Source of the DNA: Oleomonas cavernae
GTDB lineage: Bacteria; Pseudomonadota; Alphaproteobacteria; Zavarziniales; Zavarziniaceae
Length of the DNA stretch: 64,000 nucleotides
Reading direction: 5' to 3'
Assembly (NCBI RefSeq): GCF_003590945.1
Contig: NZ_QYUK01000011.1
Coordinates: 276,001 to 340,000, forward strand
The notes beneath the pieces are model-generated. The model worked only from the letters and a program-made list of their open reading frames with translations. It ran no database searches and was not told where the DNA came from. Positions 8,875 to 33,305 of the stretch are shown here, one piece after another. The stretch's first letter is position 1. Every line of letters begins with the position of its first letter. Position numbers and translations under genes: made by a program.

Positions 8875-9125
8875 CACATCCGCAAGGTCCAGGATTACAA
8901 GGTCAAGGAACGGTCGCCGGCATCGAACAGCTGTGCGCCCTCGCTGGAGTCAGCCGGGCGGCTTACTACCGGCACTGGCAAGAGCACGCGCCGCTGGTGC
9001 AGGAGACGGTGCTGCGTGACGCCGTCCAGCGCCTGGCGATCACCCATCGCCACTATGGCTATCGGCGCATCACCGTCCTGCTGAAGCGGGATGGCTGGCA
9101 GGTCAACCGTAATCGGCCGATTTAG
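8871..9125 (+). pseudogene. IS3-family OrfB, N-terminal part cut by IS66
   Basis: This stretch encodes the start of the IS3 transposase: the region IEQLCALAGVSRAAYYRHW and the HTH-21 motif HRHYGYRRITVLL. After GWQVN the reading frame enters the IS66 left end at 9109 and stops within six codons. The 8-bp target duplication GGTCAACC (9101-9108 and 11912-11919) marks the exact cut. The missing catalytic part resumes at 11912. It is clearly nonfunctional. Confidence 0.88.
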
Positions 9126-9205
9126 GCCGCCTTCAGTGGCTGACTGTAGCGGTTTAGATTACGTCGTTAACGACGTCGTTAGTGACGTCGTCAGCGGGGT
9201 GAACG

Positions 9206-9583
9206 ATGCGGCAGGATATCCTGACCGGGCCAGAGCGGCGCCGGCGATGGGCGATCGCGGAGAAGCGGCGGATTGTCGACGAGGCAGGAGCCGAAGGAGT
9301 GTCCGTGGCGGAAGTGGCGCGTCGGCACGACCTCACCCGCCAGCACATCTATCAATGGCGAAGAGAGCTTCAGGCCAAGGGTGACCTGCCGACCGTGGCA
9401 ACGGTGTTTCTCCCGGTCGAGATATCCAGCGACGATGGTCGTACCGAGCGTGGCGGCGATGCCGACTTGGTGCATGGATACCAAGTCGAGATCGTGGTGC
9501 GGAATGGCCGCAGCGTGCGTGTCGCCTCTGACGTTCCAGATGTTATCGTACAGCGCATGATCCGCCTTGCCGAGGCGCCGTGA
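9206..9583 (+). CDS. tnpA: IS66 TnpA
   Basis: A 125-residue accessory protein of IS66 elements. An N-terminal helix-turn-helix (GPERRRRWAIAEKRRIVDEA, then VAEVARRHDLTRQHIYQWRR) should bind the ends of the element. The C-terminal half ends with the usual VASDVPDVIVQRMIRLAE region. It is the first gene of the element. Its stop overlaps the GTG start of tnpB as GTGA, which implies coupled translation. The same gene recurs at 30368. Confidence 0.92.
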   Translation: MRQDILTGPERRRRWAIAEKRRIVDEAGAEGVSVAEVARRHDLTRQHIYQWRRELQAKGDLPTVATVFLPVEISSDDGRTERGGDADLVHGYQVEIVVRNGRSVRVASDVPDVIVQRMIRLAEAP

Positions 9584-9927
9584 TCGGGCCGGGCACTGGC
9601 GTGCGGGTCTACCTGGCCTGCGGCGTGACCGACATGCGCAAAGGCATAGGCGGCTTGGTGGCCAAGGCGCAGGACGTGCTGAAGCAGGACACCCGATCGG
9701 GAGCGGTCTTCGCGTTCCGTGGCGGCAGGGGAGACCGGATCAAGCTTCTGCACTGGGATGGGCAAGGCTTCTGCCTCTACTACAAGATCCTGGAGAAGGG
9801 TCGCTTCCCCTGGCCGTCGCCGGCCGAAGGGGCGGCGAACCTGACTTCGGCGCAGTTGGCGATGTTGTGGGAAGGCATCGACTGGCGCCGTCCGACTTGG
9901 ACCTCGCCACCCGACAGGGTTGGTTGA
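9580..9927 (+). CDS. tnpB: IS66 TnpB
   Basis: A 115-residue protein of the IS66 Orf2 (TnpB) family. It has the diagnostic sequence GVTDMRKGIGGLVAKAQ, the block FRGGRGDRIKLLHWDGQGF and the end PSPAEGAANLTSAQLAMLWE followed by GIDWRRPTW. It is needed for IS66 transposition, but its biochemical role is unknown. It starts at GTG inside the tnpA stop and is followed by a ~60-base gap before tnpC. Confidence 0.93.
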   Translation: MIGPGTGVRVYLACGVTDMRKGIGGLVAKAQDVLKQDTRSGAVFAFRGGRGDRIKLLHWDGQGFCLYYKILEKGRFPWPSPAEGAANLTSAQLAMLWEGIDWRRPTWTSPPDRVG

Positions 9928-9989
9928 TTATTGATATGATTCAATGACATAAGGCTTTTGTGGGGCGCCACTTCGCGGTACCATCAGCC

Positions 9990-11648
9990 ATGTCGCTAGT
10001 CCCCGACATTCTCCCCGACGATCCCGCCGCGCTGAAGGCAATCATTGCCGCGCAGCGCGAAGAAGTGGCGCGGTTAACCGCCTCGGCGCGCGCCTACGAA
10101 GCCTTGGTGCAGGCACTCAAGATCCGCATTGCGCGGCTAAAACGACAGAAGTTCGGGGTCAGCTCGGAGAAGATCGAACGGGAGATCGAGCAACTCCAAC
10201 TCGCCCTTGAGGATCTCGAAGTTGCCATGGCCGCGGCCGGCACGCTTGCCATGCCCGATGACAATGCCCCAGATGACAGCGCGTTGGTGCCTGATGGTGA
10301 TCAGCTATCAGATGGCCGGCCTGCGCCACGCCGGCGCGGCAAGCCCCGGGTCGTCGCCGATACACCACGTGAGCGCATCGTGCTCGACCCCGGTGAACAC
10401 TGCCCCGATTGCGGCGGCGCCCTGCGCCTGGTCGGTGAGGATGTATCGGAGATCCTCGACTACATTGCCGCCAAGCTGAAGGTGGTCGAGACCGCCCGCC
10501 TCAAGAAGTCCTGCCGGTGCTGTGAGAAGATCGTTCAGCCGGCTGCCCCGACGCGGCCGCTCCGGCGTGGCATGATGGGGGCGAACCTTCTTGCTCATAT
10601 CATCGTCTCGAAGTTCGACGATCAGCTGCCGTTGTATCGGCAGGCTGAGATCTTTGCCCGCCTTGGGGCGGAGATTCCGCGATCGACCCTTATCGACGGC
10701 TGTGGTGCAGGGGTGGCGACACTCCGGCCAGTAATCAACCTGATCAAGACCGAGGTCCTGGGCGCCGATCGGCTGCACGTGGACGACACGCCGATCAAAG
10801 TGCTGGACCCGTCGCGTCGTACCGCCGATCCAATGGTTCGTGGTGTCAAGGAGGGCCGTATCTGGGTCTATGTGCGTGACGACCGGCCATGGGGCGGCGG
10901 GGATCCACCTGGTGCCGCCTACTTTTTCTCGCCCGACCGCAAGGGCGAACACCCCCAGCGCCACCTCGGCAGCTTCAATGGGATCCTGCAGGCCGACGCC
11001 TATGGCGGATTCAAGAAGCTCTACGCCCCTGGAGAAGACGGGGCATCGCGGATCCGGGAGGCCGCATGCTGGGCGCACTTACGCCGTGACTTCCATGACG
11101 TGTGGAAGATGACGGGCTCCTCGATTGCCAAGGAGGCGCTCGACCGTATCGGTGCCCTCTATGATATCGAACGTGACATTGCCGGTCGCGCCGCCGAGGT
11201 CCGTCATCAAGTTCGCCGGGACCACAGCCGGCCTCGGGCCGAGCACTTCCGGACATGGTGTGAAGCCCAGTTGGCGCAGATACCGGGCAAGGGCGGTTCG
11301 ATCAAGGGCGACCTGGCAATGGCCATGCGCTACGCCCTCAAGCGTTGGTCCGCCTTCACTCTCTTCCTGGAGGATGGCCGCGTCGCCATTGACAATAACG
11401 CCGCCGAACGGGCGATCAGGCCGATCGCAATCGGACGGAAGAATTTTTTGTTCGCCGGATCCGATGCCGGAGGAGAGACCATCGCCGACGCCATGACGAT
11501 CATCGAGACCGCCAAGCTCGCGGGGCTCAATCCCGAGGCCTATCTCGCCGATGTTCTGGCGCGCATCAACGACCACATCGTCACTCGCCTCTCCGAACTC
11601 CTGCCATGGAATTGGACGCCCTTGACCGCGCAGCGCCAGGCCGCCTGA
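9990..11648 (+). CDS. tnpC: IS66 TnpC transposase
   Basis: The catalytic DDE transposase of the element, 552 residues from ATG 9990; the frame is open to GTG 9960 and the start is not certain. An N-terminal coiled coil (AAQREEVARLTASARAYEAL) leads into the family's zinc-finger-like region with paired cysteines (HCPDCGGALRL, then SCRCCEKI). Acidic residues of the catalytic core are in RLHVDDTPIKVL and LQADAYGGFKKLY, with the Glu in NNAAERAIRP. The C-terminus ends with LLPWNW, common in the family. It appears full length. Confidence 0.93.
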   Translation: MSLVPDILPDDPAALKAIIAAQREEVARLTASARAYEALVQALKIRIARLKRQKFGVSSEKIEREIEQLQLALEDLEVAMAAAGTLAMPDDNAPDDSALVPDGDQLSDGRPAPRRRGKPRVVADTPRERIVLDPGEHCPDCGGALRLVGEDVSEILDYIAAKLKVVETARLKKSCRCCEKIVQPAAPTRPLRRGMMGANLLAHIIVSKFDDQLPLYRQAEIFARLGAEIPRSTLIDGCGAGVATLRPVINLIKTEVLGADRLHVDDTPIKVLDPSRRTADPMVRGVKEGRIWVYVRDDRPWGGGDPPGAAYFFSPDRKGEHPQRHLGSFNGILQADAYGGFKKLYAPGEDGASRIREAACWAHLRRDFHDVWKMTGSSIAKEALDRIGALYDIERDIAGRAAEVRHQVRRDHSRPRAEHFRTWCEAQLAQIPGKGGSIKGDLAMAMRYALKRWSAFTLFLEDGRVAIDNNAAERAIRPIAIGRKNFLFAGSDAGGETIADAMTIIETAKLAGLNPEAYLADVLARINDHIVTRLSELLPWNWTPLTAQRQAA

Positions 11649-11650
11649 CC

Positions 11651-11899
11651 ATGGCGGCGATCACCCATCTCCACACGCTTGCCCGGGTCGCTGAAATGCT
11701 GGGTGAGGACGAGGACTGGCTGCATGATATCTGCCTTGAGATGGAACCCGAGGACGGGATCATCTCCGTCTACGGCCTGGGCGACGACTGCACGCCAGCC
11801 TTCACCGATTTCGGCATCGAAAACCTCCGGCAAATCATAGAAATCCACCGGGAGAACGAACAAAGCGCTCGCTCAAACGAAACCCCTCAGGGGCCTTGA
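11651..11899 (+). CDS. IS66 passenger protein of unknown function
   Basis: An 82-residue acidic protein starting at ATG 11651, two bases after the tnpC stop, and ending just inside the right end of the element. It contains HLHTLARVAEMLGEDEDWLH followed by an EPEDGIISVYG stretch. Small genes at this position occur in other IS66 elements of proteobacteria. Since it sits between the ends and is repeated in copy B, it moves with the element. Function is unknown. A longer frame from 11606 would overlap tnpC and is less likely. Confidence 0.7.
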   Translation: MAAITHLHTLARVAEMLGEDEDWLHDICLEMEPEDGIISVYGLGDDCTPAFTDFGIENLRQIIEIHRENEQSARSNETPQGP

Positions 11900-11911
11900 G
11901 CGGCCGGTTAC

Positions 11912-12598
11912 GGTCAACCGCAAGCGGGTGGCCAGGATTCTGAAGGAAGACAACCTGCTCTGCCTGAGGAAGCCGCTGTTCAGTTCAGGCCGCCAACCAC
12001 CGACAGCCGCCATAGCTGGCGGGTCTGGCCCAACCTGGCGCGGCATATGAAGCCGCTGGCCATCGACCAGCTGTGGGTCGCCGACATCACCTATGTGCGG
12101 CTGGGCGAGGCCTTCGTCTACCTGGCAGTGGTGCTCGACGCCTTCAGCCGCAAGGTCGTGGGCTGGGCCATGGCCGGCCACCTGCGCGCCGAACTGGCCT
12201 TGGCGGCCCTGGAGATGGCGCTTGTCACGCGCAGGTCCGCGCCTGGTGGCCTGGTCCACCACTCCGACCGGGGCATCCAATATGCCTGCGGCGACTATAT
12301 CGAGCGCCTGCAAGTCCATGGCATCCAGCCCTCCATGAGCAGGCCCGGCTGCCCCTATGACAACGCCATGGCCGAAAGCTTCATGAAGGCCCTCAAGCAG
12401 GAGGAGGTCGACGCCGCCGCCTATCGCGACCTTGACCATGCCACGGCCGCCGTCGGAGATTTCATCGAGGCGGTCTATAACCTCGAGCGACTGCACTCAG
12501 CCCTCGACTACCTCTCGCCCGCGGAGTTCGAAGCCAAACCCAAATCATGGGCTGCTGCGCAGCAGCCCATGCAGCCAACCAATCAACACTGTCCCTAA
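11912..12598 (+). pseudogene. IS3-family OrfB, C-terminal part
   Basis: The reading frame resumes after the IS66 right end as VNRKRVARILKEDNLLCLRK, then loses frame near 11980. From about 11994 another frame gives TTDSRHSWRVWPNLARHMKP and the whole catalytic domain: Asp in WVADITYVRL, Asp in HHSDRGIQYA and Glu in AMAESFMKALKQEE. Comparison with the intact orfB at 13153 shows one base lost (or two gained) around 11980-11994. No homopolymer lies there, so this looks like true decay. Confidence 0.85.
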
Positions 12599-19738: not shown

Positions 19739-20176
19739 ATGGCGGAAGAGGTGCAACTGCGCGACAAGCTGCGCAAGATCGAGGCGCTATTCGCCGGCGC
19801 GGGAACAGCCGGCGAGAAGATCGCGGCTGAAGCGGCGCTTCAACGCATCCAGGCGCGGCTGGCTGAACTTGAGCGCAGCGACGAACTCATCGAGATGCAA
19901 TTCTCCCTGCCCGACCAGTGGGCACGCCGCCTCTTCCTGGCGCTGTGCCGGCGCTATGGATTGAAACCGTATCGGCTCCGCAGGCAGCGTCTCACGACCG
20001 TCATGCTGCGCGTACCGAAACGCTTTCTGGACCAGGTCCTGTGGCCCGAGTTCCAGGAACTCAACGCCGCCCTCATGCAGTATCTCAACGATGTGACGAT
20101 CCGCGTTATTAAAGACAGCGTCCACCGCGATGTCAGCGAAGCAGCCGAAACCCCGCCCGCACTGCCGGCCCGATGA
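19739..20176 (+). CDS. IS66 passenger protein, DUF2786-like N-terminus
   Basis: A 145-residue protein from ATG 19739 (the frame is open to 19679). The first ~45 residues ([20 protein letters not shown]) resemble DUF2786, a short domain of unknown role. The rest ([20 protein letters not shown], then [20 protein letters not shown]) appears to be the conserved core of a protein carried by some IS66 elements. It lies between tnpC and the right end, so it travels with the element. No function is known to me. Confidence 0.72.
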
Positions 20177-20253
20177 CGCAAAAACTATACCGCGGTCCTC
20201 ACCGGATGCTTACGGTCTACCGCTGGTTCCACGAGTTGGCGCGGCGCTTTCTG

Positions 20254-21305
20254 ATCTTGGCAACAGGCGGCGCCGGCTTCATCGGCTCAGGCCTAGATGT
20301 CACATCATCGCCGAGCGCCCTCACGATCAGGTGCTGAACCTCGACAAGCTGACCTATGCCGGCACCTTGACCTCGCTGCACGGCGTCGAGGGCAATCCGC
20401 GCTATCGCTTCGTCCAGGGCGACATCGGCGACCGTGCGCTGCTCGCCGGCCTGCTGGCTGAGTATGCCCCCGACGTGGTCATCCACCTGGCGGCGGAAAG
20501 CCATGTCGACCGCTCGATCGAAGGCCCCGGCGCCTTCGTCGAGACCAATGTGGTCGGCACCTACAGCCTGCTCGAGGCGACCCTGGCCTATTGGCGGACG
20601 CTGGATGCCGAGCGCAAGGCCGCCTTCCGCTTCCACCACGTCTCGACCGACGAGGTCTTCGGCTCCCTGGGCGAGACCGGCTTCTTCACCGAGGAAACCC
20701 CCTATTCGCCGCGCTCGCCCTATTCGGCCTCCAAGGCGGCCTCGGACCATCTGGTGATGGCCTGGCACCACACCTACGGCCTGCCGGTGGTGCTCACCAA
20801 CTGCTCGAACAATTACGGCCCCCACCAATTCCCCGAAAAGCTGATCCCGCTGATGATCATCAAGGGCCTGGCGGGCGAGAAGCTGCCCGTTTACGGCAAG
20901 GGCGACAATGTCCGCGACTGGCTCTACGTCGATGACCATGTCCGCGCCCTATGCACCGTGTTCGACAAGGGCCGGGTGGGCGAGACCTACAATGTCGGCG
21001 GCAATGCCGAGCGCACCAACCTGACCGTGGTGGAGACGATCTGCGCCGCCCTGGACGGGCTGCGCCCGCGCGCCGACGGCAAGCCTCATGCCGCGCAGAT
21101 CGGCTTCGTCACCGACCGGCCGGGCCACGACCAGCGCTATGCCATCGACGCCGCCAAGATCCGCCGCGAACTGGGCTGGGAACCGCGCGAGAGCTTCGAG
21201 ACCGGCATGGCCGCGACCGTCGCCTGGTACCTGGAGAACGAACCCTGGTGGCGCGCCATCGAGGCCTCGCGCTATGGCGGCGAGCGCTTAGGGCTGGCGG
21301 GATAG
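20254..21305 (+). pseudogene. rfbB: dTDP-glucose 4,6-dehydratase, 5' end destroyed
   Basis: The coding sequence is unmistakable RfbB (RmlB): the NAD motif [36 protein letters not shown], the Y-x3-K active site in [12 protein letters not shown], and [15 protein letters not shown]. It would convert dTDP-glucose to the 4-keto-6-deoxy sugar for dTDP-rhamnose. The start codon is replaced by IS5-family remnant sequence at 20250, and one base is missing near 20296, between the NAD motif and [10 protein letters not shown]. No run of G lies there, so this looks like real damage. No rfbA, rfbC or rfbD is nearby. Confidence 0.85.
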
Positions 21306-21488
21306 GTCCTCAACCGGGCACCGCCGGGCACCGAGTTGTCTGCCTCAATCGCGCGGTGAATTGTCACCGGCACTTTATCCTAATAGTAGACCGGTTCCCG
21401 GTCGCGGGGTTATATCTGCACGCAGAGGCTGATTTACCGGATGGTATATTGGCGCACCGCTTACTGCGCACTTGGGGGATCGGGGCTC

Positions 21489-23531
21489 GTGAAAACAAGG
21501 ATCCTGGTGCTGGGCAGCGGCATGGCGGTTCTGTCGGCGCTGTTTGAGATAACTTCGCAGCCGGCTTGGCAGGACCGTTTCGAGATCACAGTTCTGCAGC
21601 AAGGTTGGCGCGCGGGTGGCAAGTGCGCCAGTAGCCGCGATCCTGAAAATAACTTTAGGAACTTTGAACACGGCCTGCATATCCTCGGCGGGTTTTATCA
21701 CAACACCTTTCGGATGCTGATCGCCTGCTACGAGGCATGGGGTGGAAGGCCACTCAGTCAGTCGGTTTTCTCGCATAACAAATTCTCCCTGATGCAGCGA
21801 ACCGGCGCAGACTGGAAAGAGAAGCCATTCAAGTTCCCCAAAAGGCGTGGCAAGCCCGGGGTGGATCCGACTGAAGCCACGCCGAAGGCCTTGCTCGAGG
21901 CCGCCCTCGACATGATCGTGGGCTTGTTGCAGGCGGCATACCCCAATGATGTCGTGGTTCCTCTCGCCGAAACGGCGGGGGATAGCGCGCCGGAAGAAGG
22001 CGTTTGGCTCCTCGTCACCTTGAGGCAAGTCCAACAGCAGTTGCGCGCCTACAAGTTAGGCCCCGCCGATACGGCAGACGATGCTACCTTGATCCAGAAC
22101 TTCAAGAAGCTCGCGGGATATGCACGGTTGCTGGCGGAAGAGCATCGGCCTTCAGGCACTAACCCAAGTGGCATTGCCGTCGGCGACCTGCTCATTCTTC
22201 TGGAATTGGTGGCTATCCTTGGTGCCGGGTTCATCGCCGACAAGGTGTTCCTACACGGCTTCGACCGGCTCGATGATCGTGATGCGCTCGAATGGCTCGA
22301 CGGACACGGCGCTTCGAAGGGCCTGCTGAAATCAACCTTTGTGAACTCGGGCTACGACTACGCCTTTGCCTATGAAGATGGACACGAGAACGGGAAAAAT
22401 TTCGCGGCAGGGGTTGCCATTCGCGGCATGTTGCGTCTCATTGTAACCTACCACGACGCGGTGTTCTTCCACATGAAAGGCGGGATGGGCGAGATTGTCA
22501 TCTTGCCATTGTTCGAGGTGCTGCGTCGACGTGGTGTTCGGTTCCACTTCTTCCACAAAGTAACCCGGATCGAGATGGACGGCGATAGACGTTCGATTGG
22601 TCTTGTCGCAGGTAAGGTTCAGGCGCCGCTGATGCAGGGTCTCGATGCCTATGATCCCATCGCCACCATGGCTTCCGATGGGCGGCGGTACTGGCCGTCG
22701 ACTCCGCGTTTCGAACAGCTTCAGGCCAAGCCGGACTGGCCAATGAATTCGCCCGATTTCGAATCCTGGTGGTACGAGGATAGGGAAATCGAAACTGATT
22801 TCGAGTATCGGGCGCACGAGCATTTTGACATTGTCCTTTCAGGCATCCCGATAGCTGCCCTTCAGCATCTTTGCCCGCAGTTCAGCGCCAATGTTCCTGG
22901 GTGGTCCGATTTCGTGGCGAAACAACGGACCTCACCGACTATTGCAATGCAATATTGGTTTCGCGAATCAACCTCGCATCTGGGCAACGAGACAGAATTG
23001 CCATTGATAACGGGCTATGTGCTGCCGGCGAGTACTTGGTGCGACATGAGCTTCCTCCTGCCGCAAGAATCGTATCAGCCCGGAAAAGAGGTCCATCACT
23101 TGAGCTATGCCTGCGGGCCCTTCCCGCGCAATCCGCACGAACCGGCGCGGCCAGACAGCAATTTTGACAAACTCGAAGCCGCGCGTGCTCGCGCGGCAGA
23201 GAAAATCTGGAATCGATACCTGCGGAACCGCCTGCTGCCCGACCTCCCGGACGATGGCAGCGGGGACTTCCAGGACGACTTGGGCGCCCATGTCCATGTT
23301 CGGGCAAACATAAGTCCTTCTGAGCGCTATGCATTGTCGACCAAGGGGAGCATTGCCTCACGCCCCAAGGTAGATGGCTTCGGCTTCGACAATTTCTTTG
23401 TCGTTGGCGACTGGACTCGTACCGGAACCAATGTCGGCGCCGTCGAATCTGCAGTCACATCCGGTCTGCAGGCTTGCCGAGCAATTTCAGGCCTGCCTCA
23501 ATATATTTATGGTGAGACGGACTTCCCCTGA
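21489..23531 (+). CDS. FAD/NAD(P)-binding oxidoreductase, amine-oxidase/desaturase type
   Basis: A 680-residue protein from GTG 21489, which follows GGGGATCGGGG; an upstream ATG at 21441 is also in frame. The dinucleotide-binding motif (ILVLGSGMAVLSALFE) is at the extreme N-terminus, followed by WRAGGKCASSR, the G-G-K/R loop of the phytoene-desaturase/monoamine-oxidase fold. The C-terminal FAD segment is NFFVVGDWTRTGTNVGAVES. The middle carries long insertions. The usual second Gly of G-x-G-x-x-G is Val here. It is the first gene of a three-gene run: 33 bases separate it from the cyclase-like gene. The substrate is unknown; such enzymes often oxidise polyprenoid or steroid-like compounds. Confidence 0.8.
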   Translation: MKTRILVLGSGMAVLSALFEITSQPAWQDRFEITVLQQGWRAGGKCASSRDPENNFRNFEHGLHILGGFYHNTFRMLIACYEAWGGRPLSQSVFSHNKFSLMQRTGADWKEKPFKFPKRRGKPGVDPTEATPKALLEAALDMIVGLLQAAYPNDVVVPLAETAGDSAPEEGVWLLVTLRQVQQQLRAYKLGPADTADDATLIQNFKKLAGYARLLAEEHRPSGTNPSGIAVGDLLILLELVAILGAGFIADKVFLHGFDRLDDRDALEWLDGHGASKGLLKSTFVNSGYDYAFAYEDGHENGKNFAAGVAIRGMLRLIVTYHDAVFFHMKGGMGEIVILPLFEVLRRRGVRFHFFHKVTRIEMDGDRRSIGLVAGKVQAPLMQGLDAYDPIATMASDGRRYWPSTPRFEQLQAKPDWPMNSPDFESWWYEDREIETDFEYRAHEHFDIVLSGIPIAALQHLCPQFSANVPGWSDFVAKQRTSPTIAMQYWFRESTSHLGNETELPLITGYVLPASTWCDMSFLLPQESYQPGKEVHHLSYACGPFPRNPHEPARPDSNFDKLEAARARAAEKIWNRYLRNRLLPDLPDDGSGDFQDDLGAHVHVRANISPSERYALSTKGSIASRPKVDGFGFDNFFVVGDWTRTGTNVGAVESAVTSGLQACRAISGLPQYIYGETDFP

Positions 23532-23564
23532 CTGCGGGCCGCCGCTTCCGGCGGGCTTGCATCG

Positions 23565-26500
23565 ATGATCGCCGGGGCGGGTGACCGGGGCACCCTGCTC
23601 GGGTTCGACGTGAGCGGCTTCACGCGCATTGTTGCGGATCTGTCGGCCGCTAAGGGCGTTCATGGCTTTGAGGAAGCAACCGACAGGCTTGGCAACGGGT
23701 TTCGCGCGGTTGTCCACGCCGGCAGGGCGCGCGGTTACGGCTTTGGCGACGTTCTGGGAGATTGCCTTCTTCTGACCAGGCGGGCCACCGAGACATCTGT
23801 TCCTGAAATCGACGACGCAGAGGCGACTGCGGCGAAGCTGGCCGCGTTGTTTACCAAAGAGTCGGGCGGCTTTCCGGTGCGCTCGGCAAGCTGCTCCGGG
23901 CTTTTCTGGAACGTGGAACTGCCGCTCCCCTTGCCAGGGGGGCAGAGCTTCCTGACAGGCCCAGCGGTTGCCGAACTTCACAGGCGGCTAGTCGCTGGGG
24001 CGGTTCCACGCAATGCAGTCAATGCAACACGATGGATTGGGTCGGACGAGGCAATCCTCGACCGCAAGCTCGGCGAAGCGTCGCTGGCGCGCTCGATAGT
24101 TGCCTTCTGTCGGATCGGCGGTGCCGAGGTCTTCTCGCAAGATGACCCAAGATTGATACAGGCGATCCTCCTGCTTGCCGACATTTGCAGCCGACACGGA
24201 GGAATCCTGTTCAAGGTAACGCAGGAAGCAAAGGGCATCATTGCTTGCATGACGTTTCCGCAGCGATTGGGGGTGGAGGCCAATCTGATACTTGCATTCA
24301 GGCCTGTAATCCCTCAGATGTCTGAAGTCGGCAGTAAATTGGTCGTCAGCATTTCTTCTGGTTCTGTCTATTCCGGCCCTATCGAGATTGATGGCGTGTC
24401 ACGCTTGACAGTGCATGGCATGGCCGTCAACCGGGCTGCCAAGCGGCTCGCCTATGCACCGTCTGGGATACGACTCGATCGTGAGACCGCGGCCCGGGCC
24501 CGCATGAGTGCGCGGCTTCCCGTCATACGTGAGACCCCTTTCGTTGGGCGGATGAAGGAGATCGAGACGATACGCCGAGCGGCTCATGAGGTGTCAAACG
24601 GTGCCTGCCGCTTGATCAGAGTCGAAGGGGTGGCGGGAGTTGGAAAATCGCGGCTTCTGGATGTTGCATGTGAAGGCTTTTCTGCAACATTCGCGTGCGC
24701 CTCGGTCCGATGCCTTGCTGAGGACGCGCACAGACCGTTCGAAGCGGCAGCGCGTCTTGTGGGCAGCCTCCTGTTCACGTTGTGGCAAGGAAGCAATCCA
24801 GTGGCAGCCTTCTTGGAGGCCTGCGCGGACGCTGGCCTCGCCAGGGTGCTCTGGCCTTTGGCCGCTCAATTGTTGGACATTGATGCCGGCCTCAATGAAC
24901 CGGTGGAGCCGGGACCTTGGCAGTCCAGTGCCAAGCGGCAGATTTTGGATTGCCTGCTCCTTGCGGCACTGCAACGGGGGCAGGTCGCCTTTGTGGTGGA
25001 TGACTACCAATGGTGTGACGACGAGACCGATGCGCTTCTGCGCAGGACACTACAAGCGGGCGACCGCCTTCTCGTACTGACAGCCGCGCGTCCGATCGAG
25101 CGGTCCTCGGTTGCCCACGAGGTGTTCCAGGACTACGCCACGATCAAACTAAAACCATTGTCAGAGTCGGAGGCTATGGTCCTCTATCGCGCATTTCTGC
25201 CTCCAGGCCACGGGACGATCGAGTCGGAATTGATCAGGTTGGGAAACGGCAACCCCCTATTCTTGATTCAGATGGCCAATTCGGCGACACGGCGCCGGCG
25301 GCGCATGAAGGCGAAGCGGCATGGTGTGCATAGGCGGCGGCCAGCCCTTACCAGTATTGTCGAGCAGCGCCTGTCGTGGCTGACAAGGCCAGCCCTTGTC
25401 GCTCTCAGGTTATTGTCGGCCGCCGGCATCGCTTTGCCAGCACAAGAGTTGGAAGGCCTAGCCTCAAGGTGGGCTGTCGGCAGTGACTTTCCTGCCGTGC
25501 TCGACTTGTTGATTACGGAAGGACTTGTCGTGCGGCTCGATGCGCATAGCATCCCAAGTTTTCAGGTGGCTCACCAATTAATCGCCTTAGCGGTGCTGAA
25601 AAGCATGCCGAAAGGTGCATTCAGGCGTATCAATGAGCATCTGGCTCGGTATGCCCAGCGAGGTTCCTTGCGGCGGCGGCTGCCACCGGCACTGCACGCT
25701 GCCTATTGGCGCCGATGCGAGTATCCGGCGCGTGCGGCAATCAAATTGGGCTCCGCGGCCAACGCGCTCCTCTCTGCCGGCAGTTATCGAGCATCGATTC
25801 ATCTTTTCGACCGGGCGGAAGCCAATCTTGCTGCGGCGACGGTGTCTGCACCTTGTCGAGTTCGCCGGCAAATCGAGTGGAAGGTAAAGAGAGCTCAGGC
25901 CTACTGGGGCCTTGGCGATCTGACGCTGGCCGGCAACCTAATAGACGAAGCATTGCATCTGTTTGGCCGCCACATCGCACTGCATAAAAAGAGAGCTTGG
26001 ATCAAAGCGTTAGGCAAACTGATGGGGGCTTCGTCATCACCGCTGGCCCATGCGGGGAATCGTGCCCGTAGTGCGTTCTTGCTTGCGCATTCTCTGCGAG
26101 CCGAACTCTCGCAGTTCAAGGGTGAGACGGGCCCGTTGATCTACTCGTCGCTGGTCTCCGTGATCTTGGCTCCCGGCAATACGAGTGGCTACCTGGCGGA
26201 AGCGAGAGCCTATGCAGTGTTTACTTATATCCTGGGACTCGCCCGCTTGGCCCCTTTGCGCAGGGCGCTGCTGGCCCATGCCAACCGACGCTTGGCGAAA
26301 AGCCCGAAATCCTCACCGGCCGGTTACGTCGCGGCTGCGACAGCCGTTCATGCCATGGCTTTCGGCAGGTGGCCCGAGGCCCGCGAGAGTTTGGCGCTTG
26401 CCACAGCGCTCAACCGCGGCCCAGAGGAGCCGCATTTGGGAGAGATGATCCTGACACTCGAAGCGCTGACCGACCATTACAACGGCATGCCTGAGGGTGG

Positions 26501-27131
26501 GGTGCAACGCTTCGGGCAACTCGGTCTCCGTGCGCGGGACCGAGGCAACGTCCTTCATACGGCCTGGGGAGACTATGGTCGCGCGCAGTCATTGATCGCT
26601 CTGGGGCGGCCTGAAGAGGCAGAAAGCCTCCTCACAAGCGCAAGTGCGCTCCTGGCTTCGTCGGGCGATGCTCAATCGCGTTTGATCGTAATCGGCCTGC
26701 GCGCCGCTGTTGCCGACCTGTTGGGGCGGAAGGTCGATGCCGTGAATCTGGCGTTGGAGGGCTATGCGCTGGCCCGTACGATACCGCCGACGAACCTCAG
26801 CTCGCTCGAAGGCTATGCTCGTCCGGCGGAGATCCTGTCGAAAGCATCGAATTCTTATGAGTTGCCCGACGATGTCGATGCACGCAGGCGGTCGGCCGCC
26901 GCACCGGCCGTCAAATTATTGGAGCGGTTTGGGGTGATCCTGCCGATGGGCAGACCGCGCGCCCATTTCGTCAGGGCGTTGTTCGAGAGAGCGAAGGGCA
27001 ACCAACGGCGCAGTTTGCGCTTCGCCCGCAAGGCAATCCTGCTCGCCGACACCTACGGCATGCCTCAGGAGAGGGCAATGGTGGAGCGCGATTTTCCTGA
27101 TCTTGCAAGATGGGAGGGGAAGGATGAGTAA
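23565..27131 (+). CDS. Tandem cyclase-like, P-loop ATPase protein with probable TPR region
   Basis: A 1188-residue protein. Residues ~10-75 match class III cyclase domain 1: the metal Asp in GFDVSGFT and the second Asp in VLGDCLLLT are both present. Residues ~175-300 look like a second cyclase domain, with Lys in ILFKVTQEAKG and the VNRAAKRL helix, where active enzymes have V-N-x-A-A-R; the Arg is Lys here. A P-loop ATPase follows: Walker A GVAGVGKSR near 354 and Walker B VAFVVDDYQW near 474. The last ~500 residues are alpha-helical repeats, probably TPR. This domain order is that of mammalian soluble adenylyl cyclase. The stop overlaps the next start by eight bases. Whether it makes cAMP is uncertain. 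Confidence 0.8.
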   Translation: MIAGAGDRGTLLGFDVSGFTRIVADLSAAKGVHGFEEATDRLGNGFRAVVHAGRARGYGFGDVLGDCLLLTRRATETSVPEIDDAEATAAKLAALFTKESGGFPVRSASCSGLFWNVELPLPLPGGQSFLTGPAVAELHRRLVAGAVPRNAVNATRWIGSDEAILDRKLGEASLARSIVAFCRIGGAEVFSQDDPRLIQAILLLADICSRHGGILFKVTQEAKGIIACMTFPQRLGVEANLILAFRPVIPQMSEVGSKLVVSISSGSVYSGPIEIDGVSRLTVHGMAVNRAAKRLAYAPSGIRLDRETAARARMSARLPVIRETPFVGRMKEIETIRRAAHEVSNGACRLIRVEGVAGVGKSRLLDVACEGFSATFACASVRCLAEDAHRPFEAAARLVGSLLFTLWQGSNPVAAFLEACADAGLARVLWPLAAQLLDIDAGLNEPVEPGPWQSSAKRQILDCLLLAALQRGQVAFVVDDYQWCDDETDALLRRTLQAGDRLLVLTAARPIERSSVAHEVFQDYATIKLKPLSESEAMVLYRAFLPPGHGTIESELIRLGNGNPLFLIQMANSATRRRRRMKAKRHGVHRRRPALTSIVEQRLSWLTRPALVALRLLSAAGIALPAQELEGLASRWAVGSDFPAVLDLLITEGLVVRLDAHSIPSFQVAHQLIALAVLKSMPKGAFRRINEHLARYAQRGSLRRRLPPALHAAYWRRCEYPARAAIKLGSAANALLSAGSYRASIHLFDRAEANLAAATVSAPCRVRRQIEWKVKRAQAYWGLGDLTLAGNLIDEALHLFGRHIALHKKRAWIKALGKLMGASSSPLAHAGNRARSAFLLAHSLRAELSQFKGETGPLIYSSLVSVILAPGNTSGYLAEARAYAVFTYILGLARLAPLRRALLAHANRRLAKSPKSSPAGYVAAATAVHAMAFGRWPEARESLALATALNRGPEEPHLGEMILTLEALTDHYNGMPEGGVQRFGQLGLRARDRGNVLHTAWGDYGRAQSLIALGRPEEAESLLTSASALLASSGDAQSRLIVIGLRAAVADLLGRKVDAVNLALEGYALARTIPPTNLSSLEGYARPAEILSKASNSYELPDDVDARRRSAAAPAVKLLERFGVILPMGRPRAHFVRALFERAKGNQRRSLRFARKAILLADTYGMPQERAMVERDFPDLARWEGKDE

Positions 27132-28104
27132 CAAAGAAGATCGCTTGCCGGCATTTGTGGAACTGCCCGGCAATTCCGTTGGCAGAATTCCCTACCGTGC
27201 CAGGGGTGCGCACATGAACGGCTTTTTGTTTGAAGCGGACAGGCGAGCTTTGCAGCGCACCTGCGACAGGTGCCTGAATGATCCCTCCACGGGTCGCCTG
27301 CGTTTCAGAGTGGTGGCGCCCTATGTGCTGCTTACCGCCCTCTATGTCGATCGGATGTCCTCTGCCGACCCGATAGACAAGAGCAAGGGGTTCGTGCGCG
27401 AAACGGATATCGGCTTTTGGATTCCGGTGGTCGGCGGATTGGCGGATGCGCCGGGCCGTTGGAAAGTCTACTGGCTCCCGACTTATATGTTCGTTGATTC
27501 AGGCTCTGCGCTGAGCGGTGGTCGCGAGGTCTTTGGCTATCCAAAGACGATGGGCGTGGTACATCGCGGCAGCGGCGGCCCGCAGCCAATGGATTTCACA
27601 GTCGACACGGAGCACTTCACGAAATTCGCCCCGGATGCGGAGGGGAGGGTGCAACGGCTCTTCGCAGTAAGTAGCAATCGTGCCACCTCAGAGGAGCCAG
27701 CGATCGAGACCACAACGACAGCTGAAGTTGCGGCCGCGATGTGGCAAATCTTTGATGCCTTCCTGCCCGACGATATTTTTGTTTTGCCGCTGTCGGGGGA
27801 CGCCTTTCTGCCCTACATCGGCATGCCCATGATCTTCCTCAAGCAGTTCCGCGATCACGAAAGCGCAAACCGTGCCTGCTATCAGGCGGTTACCGCGGTG
27901 ACGGTCAGTACGGATTCGGTCGGTTCGGTGAGACTTCCCCGAACCAAGACACGCCTCGTCGTCGCCGGATCGGCTAGCCACCCAATATCTGCGGATTTGG
28001 GTATCCCTGATGGCCGCGAGGCCACCTTGGCCATGCAGATGTCTTTGGATTTCACGGTTGGGTTCGGTTCGACACTTTGCCAGTTCACATCTGATGGCTG
28101 TTGA
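27124..28104 (+). CDS. Acetoacetate decarboxylase-like protein
   Basis: A 326-residue protein. I chose ATG 27124, which overlaps the upstream stop. It carries the acetoacetate decarboxylase family signature SGGREVFGYPKTMG, in which the Lys of the G-Y/F-P-K motif is the Schiff-base lysine in true decarboxylases. The family also holds non-decarboxylating aldolase- or dehydratase-like members, so the reaction is open. It is the last gene of the operon with the FAD enzyme and the cyclase-like protein. It ends eight bases from the convergent Crp/Fnr gene, and no terminator was seen between them. Confidence 0.8.
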   Translation: MSNKEDRLPAFVELPGNSVGRIPYRARGAHMNGFLFEADRRALQRTCDRCLNDPSTGRLRFRVVAPYVLLTALYVDRMSSADPIDKSKGFVRETDIGFWIPVVGGLADAPGRWKVYWLPTYMFVDSGSALSGGREVFGYPKTMGVVHRGSGGPQPMDFTVDTEHFTKFAPDAEGRVQRLFAVSSNRATSEEPAIETTTTAEVAAAMWQIFDAFLPDDIFVLPLSGDAFLPYIGMPMIFLKQFRDHESANRACYQAVTAVTVSTDSVGSVRLPRTKTRLVVAGSASHPISADLGIPDGREATLAMQMSLDFTVGFGSTLCQFTSDGC

Positions 28105-28112
28105 GGCAGCAC

Positions 28113-28865
28113 CTACTGCTGATCGCCGCCGCGGCCGGTGTCGAAATGCCGGGCAATTTGCTGAAGCCGCTCGATGTCTAGGATCTCGATTGCGCCACGT
28201 TTAATGACGATGATGTTGTCGGCTGCGAGGAGGCCAAGTTCCCTGGTGACGGCCTCCCGATGCGAACTAATTCGGTTGGCAAGTTCCTGGTGGGTAGGGA
28301 AATCGCTGATCACGATCCGTCCTGACTGGGGCTTGCCCTTTCCCGCCATCCTGATGATCTCATGCTGAAGCCGGTGGCGGGCAGCCAGGACGCTGAATTC
28401 CGCCACTCGTTCAGAGAGGGCTCGCGCCTTGGCCACGAGGAGTTCCATCAGTCTCCAGGCGATGCCCGGATGGTCCCGTATCAGCTTCTGAAAGTTGGCC
28501 GCATCCATTCGTCCAGCTTCAACGTGTGTTAAAGCGACAACATTGGAGGCGCGAGGCGCGTGGTCGATGGCAGCGAACTCCCCGATAATGTCGCCGGGGC
28601 CAAAGTCGGAGAAGCTGACCTCCTTGCCGTCGCTTGAGAGAAAATTAGCCCTGACGCGGCCTTCTGCGATGAAGTAGACGTGAGTCGATGAATCGCCCTG
28701 CATGACGATGTAATTGCCGGGGTCGTATTTGGTCCAGACGGTGGTGTTTCCAACAATGCGGTTCGCCTCGACGTCTATCGCGTCGAAGAGTTTTATCTTC
28801 ATTATTTTTTTGCTATCGCCATCTGAAAGATGCGTGGTCGTTTCCAGTACGCGACCGGCATGCAT
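28113..28865 (-). CDS. Crp/Fnr-family transcription regulator
   Basis: A 250-residue regulator. I kept ATG 28865 because GGGGAG stands six bases upstream; ATG 28802 lacks one. The cyclic-nucleotide-binding beta-roll is at residues ~30-140 (YDPGNYIVMQGDSSTHVYFI, then FGPGDIIGEFAAIDHAPRAS). The pocket residues G-E-F/L-A and R-A/S are present, as in cNMP-binding members. The dimer helix follows, then an HTH_Crp domain (THQELANRISSHREAVTREL). It has no Fnr-type cysteine cluster. Lying end to end with the cyclase-like operon, it could read a cyclic nucleotide made there; this is inference. Confidence 0.88.
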   Translation of the reverse strand: MHAGRVLETTTHLSDGDSKKIMKIKLFDAIDVEANRIVGNTTVWTKYDPGNYIVMQGDSSTHVYFIAEGRVRANFLSSDGKEVSFSDFGPGDIIGEFAAIDHAPRASNVVALTHVEAGRMDAANFQKLIRDHPGIAWRLMELLVAKARALSERVAEFSVLAARHRLQHEIIRMAGKGKPQSGRIVISDFPTHQELANRISSHREAVTRELGLLAADNIIVIKRGAIEILDIERLQQIARHFDTGRGGDQQ

Positions 28866-29037
28866 GACTCGCTCCCCTGCATCCGATGTTATCGATCATC
28901 CGCCGACAAATGGCTCTTTGTGGGTTTTACCACATTGTGTTCCGCGTAAGCAGACCATGTTCGTACCGACAATAACGCTGCTGCCCCCTCGACCAACTAT
29001 CTGAACGAGTTGGCAGCGTTTCTGATGGCGGTCCCCC

Positions 29038-30126
29038 ATGAGCGAGCGAGAGCGCTTGGCTGACGAAATTTACGCCGCAGCGTGGCTACCAAGCCTCTGG
29101 CCAGAGGCTTTGAAGGGGCTGGCACGGCTGTCTGGAAGCTTCGGTGCCGCCTTGGTTTCTCGCAAGAATTCGACGCGCTGGATCGGGACGCCGAGCGTCG
29201 AACCGGTGATAAAGGCGTATATGGATGGCGGTTGGTGGACCTGTGATACCAGGGCGGCACGCGCGGCGGCGCTGCTTTATCCTGGCTTTGTCGCCGACAA
29301 TGAGCTCTATAGTCCAGAAGAGCTTGAGCATGACACCTTTTACGTCGATTTTCTGCGTAAGTTCGGGCTGGGCTGGTCACTGGTTTCGGCCATCCCTTCA
29401 CGCGATCAGGGGGCGATGATCCTCAGCGTAGAGCGGCTACTTGAAGCGGGCCCTGTCGATCCATCACTGGTTAGGGTGCTGGATCCCTATCGGTTCCATT
29501 TTGCTCAGGCGGTACAGATTTCTGAGCGGCTCGGCACCGAGCAGGCACAAACAGCTTCGCGGATCCTCAAGGTGTTGGGCTTGCCAGCGGCAGTTATCGG
29601 GGATGACGGGCGTGTTATGGCGGTCAATTCCTTGTTCGAAGACCTGCGCGGCCGCCTTGTCGCACGCGCATTCGGTCGCGTTGGCGTATCATATCGCCCC
29701 GCGGCGAAGCTGCTGGACCAAGAGGTATCACGACTTGTGTCGACCGCGGTTGCCGTGCCGGTAGCCATTCCTGTGCCCGTGAGCGAGGAAGGCCCAGCTC
29801 TGGTTTTGAGACTCGTCCCGGTGAGGCGTGAAGCCGGCGATATTTTTGCTCGGGCCGTGGCTATCCTAGTGGTAACGCCACTCGAATGTGGTGCGCCGCC
29901 GCCCGCACCGATCCTCCAAGGACTGTTCGATCTCTCCCCGATGGAGGCAAAGGTTGCCGGAGGCATCGCCTCCGGCGGTACGATCGAGACCATCGCCAGG
30001 ACTCATGGGAAATCCCGGGAAACGATCCGATCGCAGTTACGTTCAATATTCTCGAAGACTGGAACAACAAGACAGGCCGAGCTTGTGGGGTTGCTCGCGC
30101 GTGCGCAAATAAATTTAACGGTGTAA
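29038..30126 (+). CDS. LuxR-type HTH regulator
   Basis: A 362-residue protein with a C-terminal LuxR/GerE helix-turn-helix (LSPMEAKVAGGIASGGTIET, then HGKSRETIRSQLRSIFSKTG). The ~250 residues in front form an unassigned sensor region, possibly PAS-like around VIGDDGRVMAVNSLFEDL. It is divergent from the Crp/Fnr gene, with 172 bases between them that should hold both promoters. It ends 144 bases before the second IS66 copy. It has no receiver domain and no autoinducer-binding signature, so it is an orphan regulator with unknown signal. Confidence 0.85.
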   Translation: MSERERLADEIYAAAWLPSLWPEALKGLARLSGSFGAALVSRKNSTRWIGTPSVEPVIKAYMDGGWWTCDTRAARAAALLYPGFVADNELYSPEELEHDTFYVDFLRKFGLGWSLVSAIPSRDQGAMILSVERLLEAGPVDPSLVRVLDPYRFHFAQAVQISERLGTEQAQTASRILKVLGLPAAVIGDDGRVMAVNSLFEDLRGRLVARAFGRVGVSYRPAAKLLDQEVSRLVSTAVAVPVAIPVPVSEEGPALVLRLVPVRREAGDIFARAVAILVVTPLECGAPPPAPILQGLFDLSPMEAKVAGGIASGGTIETIARTHGKSRETIRSQLRSIFSKTGTTRQAELVGLLARAQINLTV

Positions 30127-30367
30127 CCAAATATTTGAAATTTTTTCACGAATCATGGGTTGCTAATTAATCAGGGGCATGGTGCCGAAGTTTGTTACCG
30201 GTTCCCCGCCCTGTTCGCTCCAAGCCACGGCCTTGGCGCTCGGCGATAACGAAGAAGTCGCCGATGAACCGTAATCGGCCGATTTAGGCCGCCTTCAGTG
30301 GCTGACTGTAGCGGTTTAGATTACGTCGTTAACGACGTCGTTAGTGACGTCGTCAGCGGGGTGAACG

Positions 30368-30745
30368 ATGCGGCAGGATATCCTGACCGGGCCAGAGCGG
30401 CGCCGGCGATGGGCGATCGCGGAGAAGCGGCGGATTGTCGACGAGGCAGGAGCCGAAGGAGTGTCCGTGGCGGAAGTGGCGCGTCGGCACGACCTCACCC
30501 GCCAGCACATCTATCAATGGCGAAGAGAGCTTCAGGCCAAGGGTGACCTGCCGACCGTGGCAACGGTGTTTCTCCCGGTCGAGATATCCAGCGACGATGG
30601 TCGTACCGAGCGTGGCGGCGATGCCGACTTGGTGCATGGATACCAAGTCGAGATCGTGGTGCGGAATGGCCGCAGCGTGCGTGTCGCCTCTGACGTTCCA
30701 GATGTTATCGTACAGCGCATGATCCGCCTTGCCGAGGCGCCGTGA
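30368..30745 (+). CDS. tnpA: IS66 TnpA (copy B)
   Basis: The product is identical to the TnpA encoded at 9206-9583: 125 residues with the helix-turn-helix VAEVARRHDLTRQHIYQWRR. The stop overlaps the GTG of tnpB. It probably binds the element ends. Confidence 0.92.
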   Translation: MRQDILTGPERRRRWAIAEKRRIVDEAGAEGVSVAEVARRHDLTRQHIYQWRRELQAKGDLPTVATVFLPVEISSDDGRTERGGDADLVHGYQVEIVVRNGRSVRVASDVPDVIVQRMIRLAEAP

Positions 30746-31089
30746 TCGGGCCGGGCACTGGCGTGCGGGTCTACCTGGCCTGCGGCGTGACCGACATGCG
30801 CAAAGGCATAGGCGGCTTGGTGGCCAAGGCGCAGGACGTGCTGAAGCAGGACACCCGATCGGGAGCGGTCTTCGCGTTCCGTGGCGGCAGGGGAGACCGG
30901 ATCAAGCTTCTGCACTGGGATGGGCAAGGCTTCTGCCTCTACTACAAGATCCTGGAGAAGGGTCGCTTCCCCTGGCCGTCGCCGGCCGAAGGGGCGGCGA
31001 ACCTGACTTCGGCGCAGTTGGCGATGTTGTGGGAAGGCATCGACTGGCGCCGTCCGACTTGGACCTCGCCACCCGACAGGGTTGGTTGA
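30742..31089 (+). CDS. tnpB: IS66 TnpB (copy B)
   Basis: A 115-residue TnpB identical to that at 9580-9927, with GVTDMRKGIGGLVAKAQ and GIDWRRPTW. It is read from GTG inside the end of tnpA. It is an accessory protein of unknown activity. Confidence 0.93.
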   Translation: MIGPGTGVRVYLACGVTDMRKGIGGLVAKAQDVLKQDTRSGAVFAFRGGRGDRIKLLHWDGQGFCLYYKILEKGRFPWPSPAEGAANLTSAQLAMLWEGIDWRRPTWTSPPDRVG

Positions 31090-31151
31090 TTATTGATATG
31101 ATTCAATGACATAAGGCTTTTGTGGGGCGCCACTTCGCGGTACCATCAGCC

Positions 31152-32810
31152 ATGTCGCTAGTCCCCGACATTCTCCCCGACGATCCCGCCGCGCTGAAGG
31201 CAATCATTGCCGCGCAGCGCGAAGAAGTGGCGCGGTTAACCGCCTCGGCGCGCGCCTACGAAGCCTTGGTGCAGGCACTCAAGATCCGCATTGCGCGGCT
31301 AAAACGACAGAAGTTCGGGGTCAGCTCGGAGAAGATCGAACGGGAGATCGAGCAACTCCAACTCGCCCTTGAGGATCTCGAAGTTGCCATGGCCGCGGCC
31401 GGCACGCTTGCCATGCCCGATGACAATGCCCCAGATGACAGCGCGTTGGTGCCTGATGGTGATCAGCTATCAGATGGCCGGCCTGCGCCACGCCGGCGCG
31501 GCAAGCCCCGGGTCGTCGCCGATACACCACGTGAGCGCATCGTGCTCGACCCCGGTGAACACTGCCCCGATTGCGGCGGCGCCCTGCGCCTGGTCGGTGA
31601 GGATGTATCGGAGATCCTCGACTACATTGCCGCCAAGCTGAAGGTGGTCGAGACCGCCCGCCTCAAGAAGTCCTGCCGGTGCTGTGAGAAGATCGTTCAG
31701 CCGGCTGCCCCGACGCGGCCGCTCCGGCGTGGCATGATGGGGGCGAACCTTCTTGCTCATATCATCGTCTCGAAGTTCGACGATCAGCTGCCGTTGTATC
31801 GGCAGGCTGAGATCTTTGCCCGCCTTGGGGCGGAGATTCCGCGATCGACCCTTATCGACGGCTGTGGTGCAGGGGTGGCGACACTCCGGCCAGTAATCAA
31901 CCTGATCAAGACCGAGGTCCTGGGCGCCGATCGGCTGCACGTGGACGACACGCCGATCAAAGTGCTGGACCCGTCGCGTCGTACCGCCGATCCAATGGTT
32001 CGTGGTGTCAAGGAGGGCCGTATCTGGGTCTATGTGCGTGACGACCGGCCATGGGGCGGCGGGGATCCACCTGGTGCCGCCTACTTTTTCTCGCCCGACC
32101 GCAAGGGCGAACACCCCCAGCGCCACCTCGGCAGCTTCAATGGGATCCTGCAGGCCGACGCCTATGGCGGATTCAAGAAGCTCTACGCCCCTGGAGAAGA
32201 CGGGGCATCGCGGATCCGGGAGGCCGCATGCTGGGCGCACTTACGCCGTGACTTCCATGACGTGTGGAAGATGACGGGCTCCTCGATTGCCAAGGAGGCG
32301 CTCGACCGTATCGGTGCCCTCTATGATATCGAACGTGACATTGCCGGTCGCGCCGCCGAGGTCCGTCATCAAGTTCGCCGGGACCACAGCCGGCCTCGGG
32401 CCGAGCACTTCCGGACATGGTGTGAAGCCCAGTTGGCGCAGATACCGGGCAAGGGCGGTTCGATCAAGGGCGACCTGGCAATGGCCATGCGCTACGCCCT
32501 CAAGCGTTGGTCCGCCTTCACTCTCTTCCTGGAGGATGGCCGCGTCGCCATTGACAATAACGCCGCCGAACGGGCGATCAGGCCGATCGCAATCGGACGG
32601 AAGAATTTTTTGTTCGCCGGATCCGATGCCGGAGGAGAGACCATCGCCGACGCCATGACGATCATCGAGACCGCCAAGCTCGCGGGGCTCAATCCCGAGG
32701 CCTATCTCGCCGATGTTCTGGCGCGCATCAACGACCACATCGTCACTCGCCTCTCCGAACTCCTGCCATGGAATTGGACGCCCTTGACCGCGCAGCGCCA
32801 GGCCGCCTGA
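31152..32810 (+). CDS. tnpC: IS66 TnpC transposase (copy B)
   Basis: A 552-residue DDE transposase identical to that at 9990-11648, with the catalytic Asp regions RLHVDDTPIKVL and LQADAYGGFKKLY and Glu in NNAAERAIRP. The same start ambiguity applies (ATG 31152 or GTG 31122). It is presumably active, since two unaltered copies are present. Confidence 0.93.
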   Translation: MSLVPDILPDDPAALKAIIAAQREEVARLTASARAYEALVQALKIRIARLKRQKFGVSSEKIEREIEQLQLALEDLEVAMAAAGTLAMPDDNAPDDSALVPDGDQLSDGRPAPRRRGKPRVVADTPRERIVLDPGEHCPDCGGALRLVGEDVSEILDYIAAKLKVVETARLKKSCRCCEKIVQPAAPTRPLRRGMMGANLLAHIIVSKFDDQLPLYRQAEIFARLGAEIPRSTLIDGCGAGVATLRPVINLIKTEVLGADRLHVDDTPIKVLDPSRRTADPMVRGVKEGRIWVYVRDDRPWGGGDPPGAAYFFSPDRKGEHPQRHLGSFNGILQADAYGGFKKLYAPGEDGASRIREAACWAHLRRDFHDVWKMTGSSIAKEALDRIGALYDIERDIAGRAAEVRHQVRRDHSRPRAEHFRTWCEAQLAQIPGKGGSIKGDLAMAMRYALKRWSAFTLFLEDGRVAIDNNAAERAIRPIAIGRKNFLFAGSDAGGETIADAMTIIETAKLAGLNPEAYLADVLARINDHIVTRLSELLPWNWTPLTAQRQAA

Positions 32811-32812
32811 CC

Positions 32813-33061
32813 ATGGCGGCGATCACCCATCTCCACACGCTTGCCCGGGTCGCTGAAATGCTGGGTGAGGACGAGGACTGGCTGCATGATATCTGCCTTG
32901 AGATGGAACCCGAGGACGGGATCATCTCCGTCTACGGCCTGGGCGACGACTGCACGCCAGCCTTCACCGATTTCGGCATCGAAAACCTCCGGCAAATCAT
33001 AGAAATCCACCGGGAGAACGAACAAAGCGCTCGCTCAAACGAAACCCCTCAGGGGCCTTGA
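32813..33061 (+). CDS. IS66 passenger protein (copy B)
   Basis: An 82-residue acidic protein identical to that at 11651-11899, starting two bases after the tnpC stop and ending 12 bases before the right end of the element. Function is unknown. Confidence 0.7.
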   Translation: MAAITHLHTLARVAEMLGEDEDWLHDICLEMEPEDGIISVYGLGDDCTPAFTDFGIENLRQIIEIHRENEQSARSNETPQGP

Positions 33062-33305
33062 GCGGCCGGTTACGATGAACCTGAGCTTTAGCTATGCCCT
33101 GCGGCAGCCGGACAAGCTACTGCCAAAAATCGAGTAAAAGAATCCGGAGGAAATGGCGGAAACCTGCCCATCCACGGCTATTGCGTGGGCCGATTCCGCC
33201 CAACACGCTTTGCTGGCAGGCCCCAATAATCTTGATCCAATTGTTGACGTCGAGAACCTCCGACCCGGGCGACGGCATCGAACCGCCTTTGGGTCTGGCG
33301 ATGAG

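Follow-up and report, generated by a model that had tools for sequence, protein, structure and literature searches.

The window analysed here, a stretch of 64,000 nucleotides from Oleomonas cavernae (contig NZ_QYUK01000011.1, positions 276,001 to 340,000 of the forward strand), carries on its plus strand at positions 23565-27131 an open reading frame (ORF) of 1188 codons that begins with ATG, ends with TAA and contains no internal stop. We found that the encoded protein of 1188 residues is a very divergent homologue of the soluble adenylyl cyclase (sAC; ADCY10-like) family, a relationship that goes beyond mere likeness of domain order to the sequence itself. An initial annotation of this DNA had claimed two class III cyclase-like domains, then a P-loop ATPase, then long helical repeats; profiles, Pfam and structural models confirmed this layout, and the motifs that it quoted, FDVSGFT (containing D15), LGDCLLL (D66), FKVTQEAKG (K217) and VNRAAKRL (N289 and K293), were all present. 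The gene and its parts are as follows.

23565..27131, plus strand: sAC-family STAND protein of 1188 residues (ORF and translation; profile, fold and Pfam matches)
23589..23996, plus strand: cyclase domain 1, C1-type, residues 9-144 (C1 profile, 38.6 bits)
23607-23609 and 23760-23762, plus strand: metal Asp residues D15 and D66 of domain 1, which map to ADCY10 D47 and D99
24084..24509, plus strand: cyclase domain 2, C2-type, residues 174-315 (C2 profile, 37.8 bits)
24213-24215 and 24408-24410, plus strand: K217 and T282 of domain 2, which map to ADCY10 K334 and T405
24429-24431 and 24441-24443, plus strand: N289 and, at the transition-state Arg position, K293 of domain 2, which map to ADCY10 N412 and R416
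24537..25070, plus strand: STAND/AAA_16 P-loop ATPase, residues 325-502 (Pfam PF13191, E 4.1e-14; STAND fold matches)
25668..27113, plus strand: superhelix of helical/TPR type, about residues 702-1183 (modelled as entirely helical at full length; weak TPR_2, TPR_12 and TPR_MalT matches)

Pfam returned only AAA_16 and weak TPR matches for the whole protein; Guanylate_cyc was absent from these matches, the cyclase pair was also missed by the NCBIfam scan, and a single-sequence phmmer search against the PDB gave zero matches, so that detection required profiles. Because Pfam was silent on the cyclases, the cyclase claim required independent testing. A plasmid search and a single scan of the genome collection, made with an alignment of three members, yielded bacterial proteins of 1250-1375 residues that combine two cyclase regions with AAA_16 and helical repeats. 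They come from Microvirga (L013), Ensifer (L005 and L025), Rhizobium (L028), Methylobacteriaceae (L020), Enterovirga (L024), Ruegeria (L021), Anaerolineales (L022) and Candidatus Sabulitectum (L037). A profile of these nine relatives, with the window protein left out, matched residues 1-324 over two segments, 9-144 and 174-315, scoring 66 bits; the best of 2000 shuffled sequences reached 5.7 bits. The same profile matched human ADCY10 structures over residues 39-470, spanning both catalytic domains, with an E value of about 4e-69, the second-best class III cyclase following at 4e-23. When the profile was split, domain 1 scored 38.6 bits with the C1-only profile, -1.3 with the C2-only profile and 0.5 with a generic single-cyclase profile, and domain 2 scored 37.8 bits with C2 only, 9.4 with C1 only and 12.5 with the generic profile; shuffled controls against the split profiles stayed at or below 9.4 bits. 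That domain 1 fits only the sAC C1 profile and domain 2 only the C2 profile indicates true homology to sAC.

Structure prediction, which the initial annotation had proposed as a check, gave a cyclase fold at the N terminus. The AlphaFold2 model of residues 1-322 had a mean predicted local distance difference (pLDDT) score of 80.4 and a predicted template modelling (pTM) score of 0.80, and in a PDB fold search with this model places 1-24 were all taken by human sAC (best E 7e-17; template modelling (TM) score 0.77 by query). The full-length model (pLDDT 71, pTM 0.41) showed cyclase, cyclase, P-loop domain and helical superhelix in this order and matched a STAND-TPR protein, sAC, Avs3, Apaf-1, CED-4 and MalT, the superposition root-mean-square deviation of about 9 A and the low whole-protein pTM making the relative positions of the domains unreliable. 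The ATPase carries Walker A (GVAGVGKS), Walker B (FVVDD) and a GNP motif (GNPLF) and, with a MalT/Apaf-1-like fold and a superhelical sensor (fold matches 6mfv, 8dgc, 3sfz and 8bob), belongs to the STAND class. The segment from the cyclase end to the STAND domain (residues 299-704) also resembles the TOMM system kinase/cyclase fusion (TIGR03903); this assignment was rejected, the 71 bits comparing with a curated cut-off of 705.75 and the kinase domain being absent.

Residues were mapped by reading the ADCY10 letters aligned in the PDB profile search, and the roles of D47, D99, K334, T405, N412, R416, K95 and R176 are those that we take these positions to have from the sAC literature. As the initial annotation had stated, domain 1 keeps both metal Asp residues and domain 2 keeps the Lys region and the Asn and has Lys where the transition-state Arg would be expected. 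Five of the six catalytic positions are thus retained (D15, D66, K217, T282 and N289), short of the full set of an active adenylyl cyclase, and we assign the protein to the family by descent and architecture rather than as a proven adenylyl cyclase. The metal Asp pair is invariant, being kept in all 11 aligned bacterial members (the window protein included), whereas the C2 positions vary: K334/T405 are E/M in the Ensifer-Rhizobium-Ruegeria group and R/T in the Methylobacteriaceae protein, N412 is lost in one member, L112, and R416 is Lys here. Both replacements in the first group fall at the adenine-reading Lys and Thr positions of L005, L021, L025 and L028, and since Glu in place of this Lys is typical of guanylyl cyclases, these four proteins may make cyclic GMP (cGMP). 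In L112 (4532-8473, minus strand), a tandem sAC-like protein, the catalytic Asn is Ile and both metal Asp residues are intact, and it is likely a pseudo-cyclase, to judge from these residues. The bicarbonate site of the window protein is replaced at both positions (K95 by D62, R176 by H139), which leaves the bicarbonate assay proposed in the initial annotation little basis in the sequence. Among the aligned bacterial members R176 is absent from all and K95 from all but one; the site is therefore not definitive of them.

Compared with mammalian ADCY10, the protein has C1, C2, P-loop STAND ATPase and helical region in the same order, the metal Asp residues coming from C1 and Lys, Thr and Asn from C2, with homology across both catalytic domains; it differs in Lys for Arg416, in Asp and His for K95 and R176, in shorter domains and linker, in the lack of an N-terminal extension and in size (1188 residues, the 187-kDa human protein having about 1600). 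The model shows the linker between C1 and C2 as short and disordered. Bacterial sAC-type cyclases (for example L013, L005/L025, L028, L021 and L022) share its domain order and align over the whole length at 20-25% identity; unlike it they keep NxxxR, L112 excepted, and a complete C2 terminus. A class-wide search, in which the best candidates of 289 genomes were scored, added L112 as a tenth tandem relative, and among these best candidates both cyclase halves were present in only two, the window and G252; the tandem-cyclase architecture is real but uncommon. The protein itself was not found in the congeneric genomes searched, and the genome-collection scan returned distant tandem relatives only. 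A tree of the ATPase domain grouped nine of the bacterial tandem members in one clade (support 99/97) with the window protein outside it, and an approximately unbiased (AU) test that placed the window protein with the tandem members did not reject this placement (p 0.42 without L037, 0.13 with it). Its position in the tree shifts when other long rows are dropped; family membership therefore rests on the cyclase domains and the overall order.

That the sAC domain order occurs in bacteria is already known and is not new here: PMC6660944 cites bacterial sAC that carries a P-loop NTPase, and both it and PMC3085406 cite Kobayashi, Buck and Levin (2004), whose title concerns the conserved domain structure of bicarbonate-regulated sAC in bacteria and eukaryotes. 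What is new here is a divergent set of residues, a shortened core and a linkage to flavin adenine dinucleotide (FAD) oxidoreductase, acetoacetate decarboxylase (ADC)-like and Crp genes, which are arranged around the cyclase gene as follows.

21441..23531, plus strand: FAD/NAD(P)-binding amine-oxidase-like oxidoreductase (Pfam Amino_oxidase and NAD_binding_8; weak NCBIfam HpnE resemblance)
27124..28104, plus strand: ADC-like protein (sequence; ADC-like match of 26.5 bits, E 5.6e-6, which falls short of the Pfam cut-off of 29.8)
28113..28865, minus strand: convergent Crp/Fnr regulator (cNMP_binding E 3e-22, HTH_Crp_2)

The FAD oxidoreductase gene ends 33 bases upstream of the cyclase gene on the same strand, and the ADC-like gene starts at an ATG at 27124, with an 8-base overlap with the cyclase gene (stop codon 27129-27131) and GGGAGGGG just upstream as a good ribosome site; from this spacing the three genes apparently form a tight operon. 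The Crp/Fnr gene lies 8 bases from the ADC-like gene, and its product, which has an intact cyclic-nucleotide phosphate-binding cassette, GEFAAIDHAPRAS, would be expected to bind cyclic nucleotides.

Parts of this gene set recur elsewhere; the loci compared are not a random sample and we claim no rate. The FAD-ADC pair recurs in Azospirillum, where it stands beside a divergent kinase-STAND-histidine kinase gene, and in Catenovulum. In Qingshengfaniella FAD, cyclase-STAND and Crp genes run in one direction, and in genome G505 the FAD gene is followed 10 bases on by a cyclase-STAND gene and a convergent Crp gene. Single-cyclase proteins of the Zn-ribbon-cyclase-AAA-TPR type (L071 and L116) likewise join a class III cyclase to STAND and TPR regions beside the same FAD family and Crp; unlike the window protein they carry an N-terminal Zn ribbon and a single cyclase domain, which presumably works as a homodimer. 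In G203 a cNMP-binding Crp-like ORF lies directly upstream of the FAD homologue. A Crp or Crp-like cNMP-binding gene thus adjoins the FAD or cyclase gene at four loci, the window included, and the G[E/D]...PR[A/S/T] cassette is present in all four. In Rufibacter (Bacteroidota) the FAD gene is accompanied by a divergent kinase-STAND-GAF-cyclase gene, and no ADC-like similarity was detected in the 317-residue product of the gene after FAD; the divergent gene (L117, Rufibacter tibetensis plasmid, 2485-7605, minus strand) encodes a Ser/Thr kinase-STAND ATPase-GAF-class III cyclase fusion of 1706 residues.

The neighbours of the bacterial sAC-type relatives differ from those in the window, comprising a GMC-oxidoreductase fusion, an amidohydrolase and an amine oxidase. 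Flavin oxidases nevertheless lie close to several of the tandem sAC-like genes: an amine oxidase gene is two genes from the tandem sAC-like gene in L112 and about 4 kb from it in L022. The GMC fusions belong to the Ensifer, Rhizobium and Ruegeria loci (L021, L025, L028 and L005), where minus-strand genes for GMC oxidoreductase and PhoD-like phosphatase fusions of about 1900 residues diverge from the tandem sAC-like gene; their domains were checked in L021 and L028, the former having an alpha/beta-hydrolase domain as well.

The operon lies between two insertion elements, found by blastn.

9105..11919, plus strand: IS66-family element, left copy (transposase ORF 9960-11648)
30267..33081, plus strand: IS66-family element, right copy

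The copies are 99.93% identical over 2815 bases, have the same orientation and bracket 18 kb including the operon, in the manner of a composite transposon; no near match to the element was found in plasmids. Third-position GC is 0.62-0.68 in the genes at 21441-30126 and 0.84-0.87 in those at 20130-21305 and 60106-61392, a comparison among window genes, and the module looks horizontally acquired. The same low-GC segment holds a PAS-fold regulator (weakly LuxR-type HTH) at 29038-30126 on the plus strand. At 17999-21305 another IS66 transposase, the third and unlike the other two, stands immediately upstream of a gene resembling nucleotide-sugar dehydratases whose N-terminal Rossmann part is apparently lost or frameshifted. 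Farther along, 35023-45630 on the minus strand encodes a protein of 3535 residues in which 38 stretches are of the RTX calcium-binding type and seven of the cadherin type; within its gene an array of six 285-base units, 94% alike, occupies 37349-39057.

The analysis shows the homology, the domain order, the residue identities, the operon layout and the repeated presence of cyclase-STAND and Crp genes next to the FAD family; the signal, the catalytic step, the Crp target and the enzyme substrate are what we infer. We put at about an even chance that the protein is a STAND-type switch which controls the surrounding genes through a cyclic nucleotide. In such a switch the TPR superhelix would sense a partner protein or a ligand, the probable signal being the substrate of the FAD and ADC-like enzymes; the P-loop module would flip between off and on as it binds and hydrolyses ATP, and the flip would reshape the N-terminal C1:C2 pseudo-heterodimer, in which C1 would provide the two metal Asp residues and C2 the adenine-reading Lys and Thr and the catalytic Asn. 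The pair in its on-state would produce a cyclic nucleotide, most likely cyclic AMP (cAMP), and synthesis would be slow because of the Lys at the transition-state Arg position. The Crp/Fnr protein would read the product and adjust how strongly the FAD oxidoreductase and ADC-like genes are expressed. Several observations weigh against this switch. The Crp gene lies on the strand opposite to the operon, and class III cyclase matches occur in at least seven places in the genome. The change of Arg416 to Lys is the sole case among the aligned members, both cyclase domains are short, C1 stopping after helix 4 (the catalytic helix) and C2, which lacks its last strands, after the next strand and helix past the catalytic helix, and the loss of the catalytic Asn in L112 means that C2-side erosion occurs within the family. 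Moreover, the window protein and L037 fall outside the tandem clade of the ATPase-domain tree on long branches, and searches of relatives' genomes, class genomes and plasmid records turned up no close orthologue.

The Lys for Arg416, the shortened domains, the very long branch and the example of L112, which lost the Asn yet keeps the metal Asp residues, would also suit a protein in which the C1:C2 pair binds ATP and metal without cyclising and gates the STAND ATPase as a module for nucleotide sensing or dimerisation, with output through protein-protein contacts. A precedent by its title is the P. aeruginosa 'class III adenylyl cyclase-like ATP-binding protein' 6yii, the 25th fold match (TM 0.70), whose cyclase-like fold aligned over 409 columns; it is a separate, smaller protein (514 residues) deposited as a transcriptional regulator, and our literature searches did not find a paper on it. 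Such a pseudo-cyclase is a serious possibility, though short of an even chance, as the protein has lost none of D15, D66, K217, T282 and N289, even though relatives differ freely at K334 and T405 and most of them do not have both K and T, a pattern that speaks against random decay, and Crp genes recur beside the gene set. The position outside the tandem clade and the abundance of single-cyclase AAA-TPR proteins could instead mean that a generic bacterial cyclase-ATPase-TPR protein duplicated its cyclase and came to resemble sAC independently; we regard this as quite improbable, for each window domain fits the matching half of sAC and not the generic cyclase profile, sAC holds the first 24 fold places and the AU test does not reject tandem membership. 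Least probable of these accounts, and very unlikely, is a decaying, non-functional gene on a mobile segment. It would explain the position between near-identical IS66 copies, the absence from the searched congeneric genomes and the differences from its relatives, both in length and at one catalytic residue. Against it, 1188 codons are open, the Walker motifs are intact, the gene is translationally coupled to an intact one and codon-position GC is uniform across the ORF. The most economical reading is a STAND switch on an sAC-type core, its product read by Crp for the FAD and ADC-like genes.

Beyond this, we consider it possible, though rather doubtful, that an sAC-type variant works with Lys for the transition-state Arg and that FAD oxidoreductase, ADC-like protein, cyclase-STAND protein and Crp make up a self-contained metabolic module under cyclic-nucleotide control. 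The cassette is seen in Alphaproteobacteria and partly in Bacteroidota, and we know of no earlier description of such a module. For the sAC family, the window protein is a far outlier that shows which catalytic positions survive. The linkage of cyclase-STAND and Crp to one FAD/ADC set would provide a testable local cAMP or cGMP circuit. Control of the sAC core by the STAND module is poorly understood in mammals, and the O. cavernae protein may offer a small bacterial model for it.

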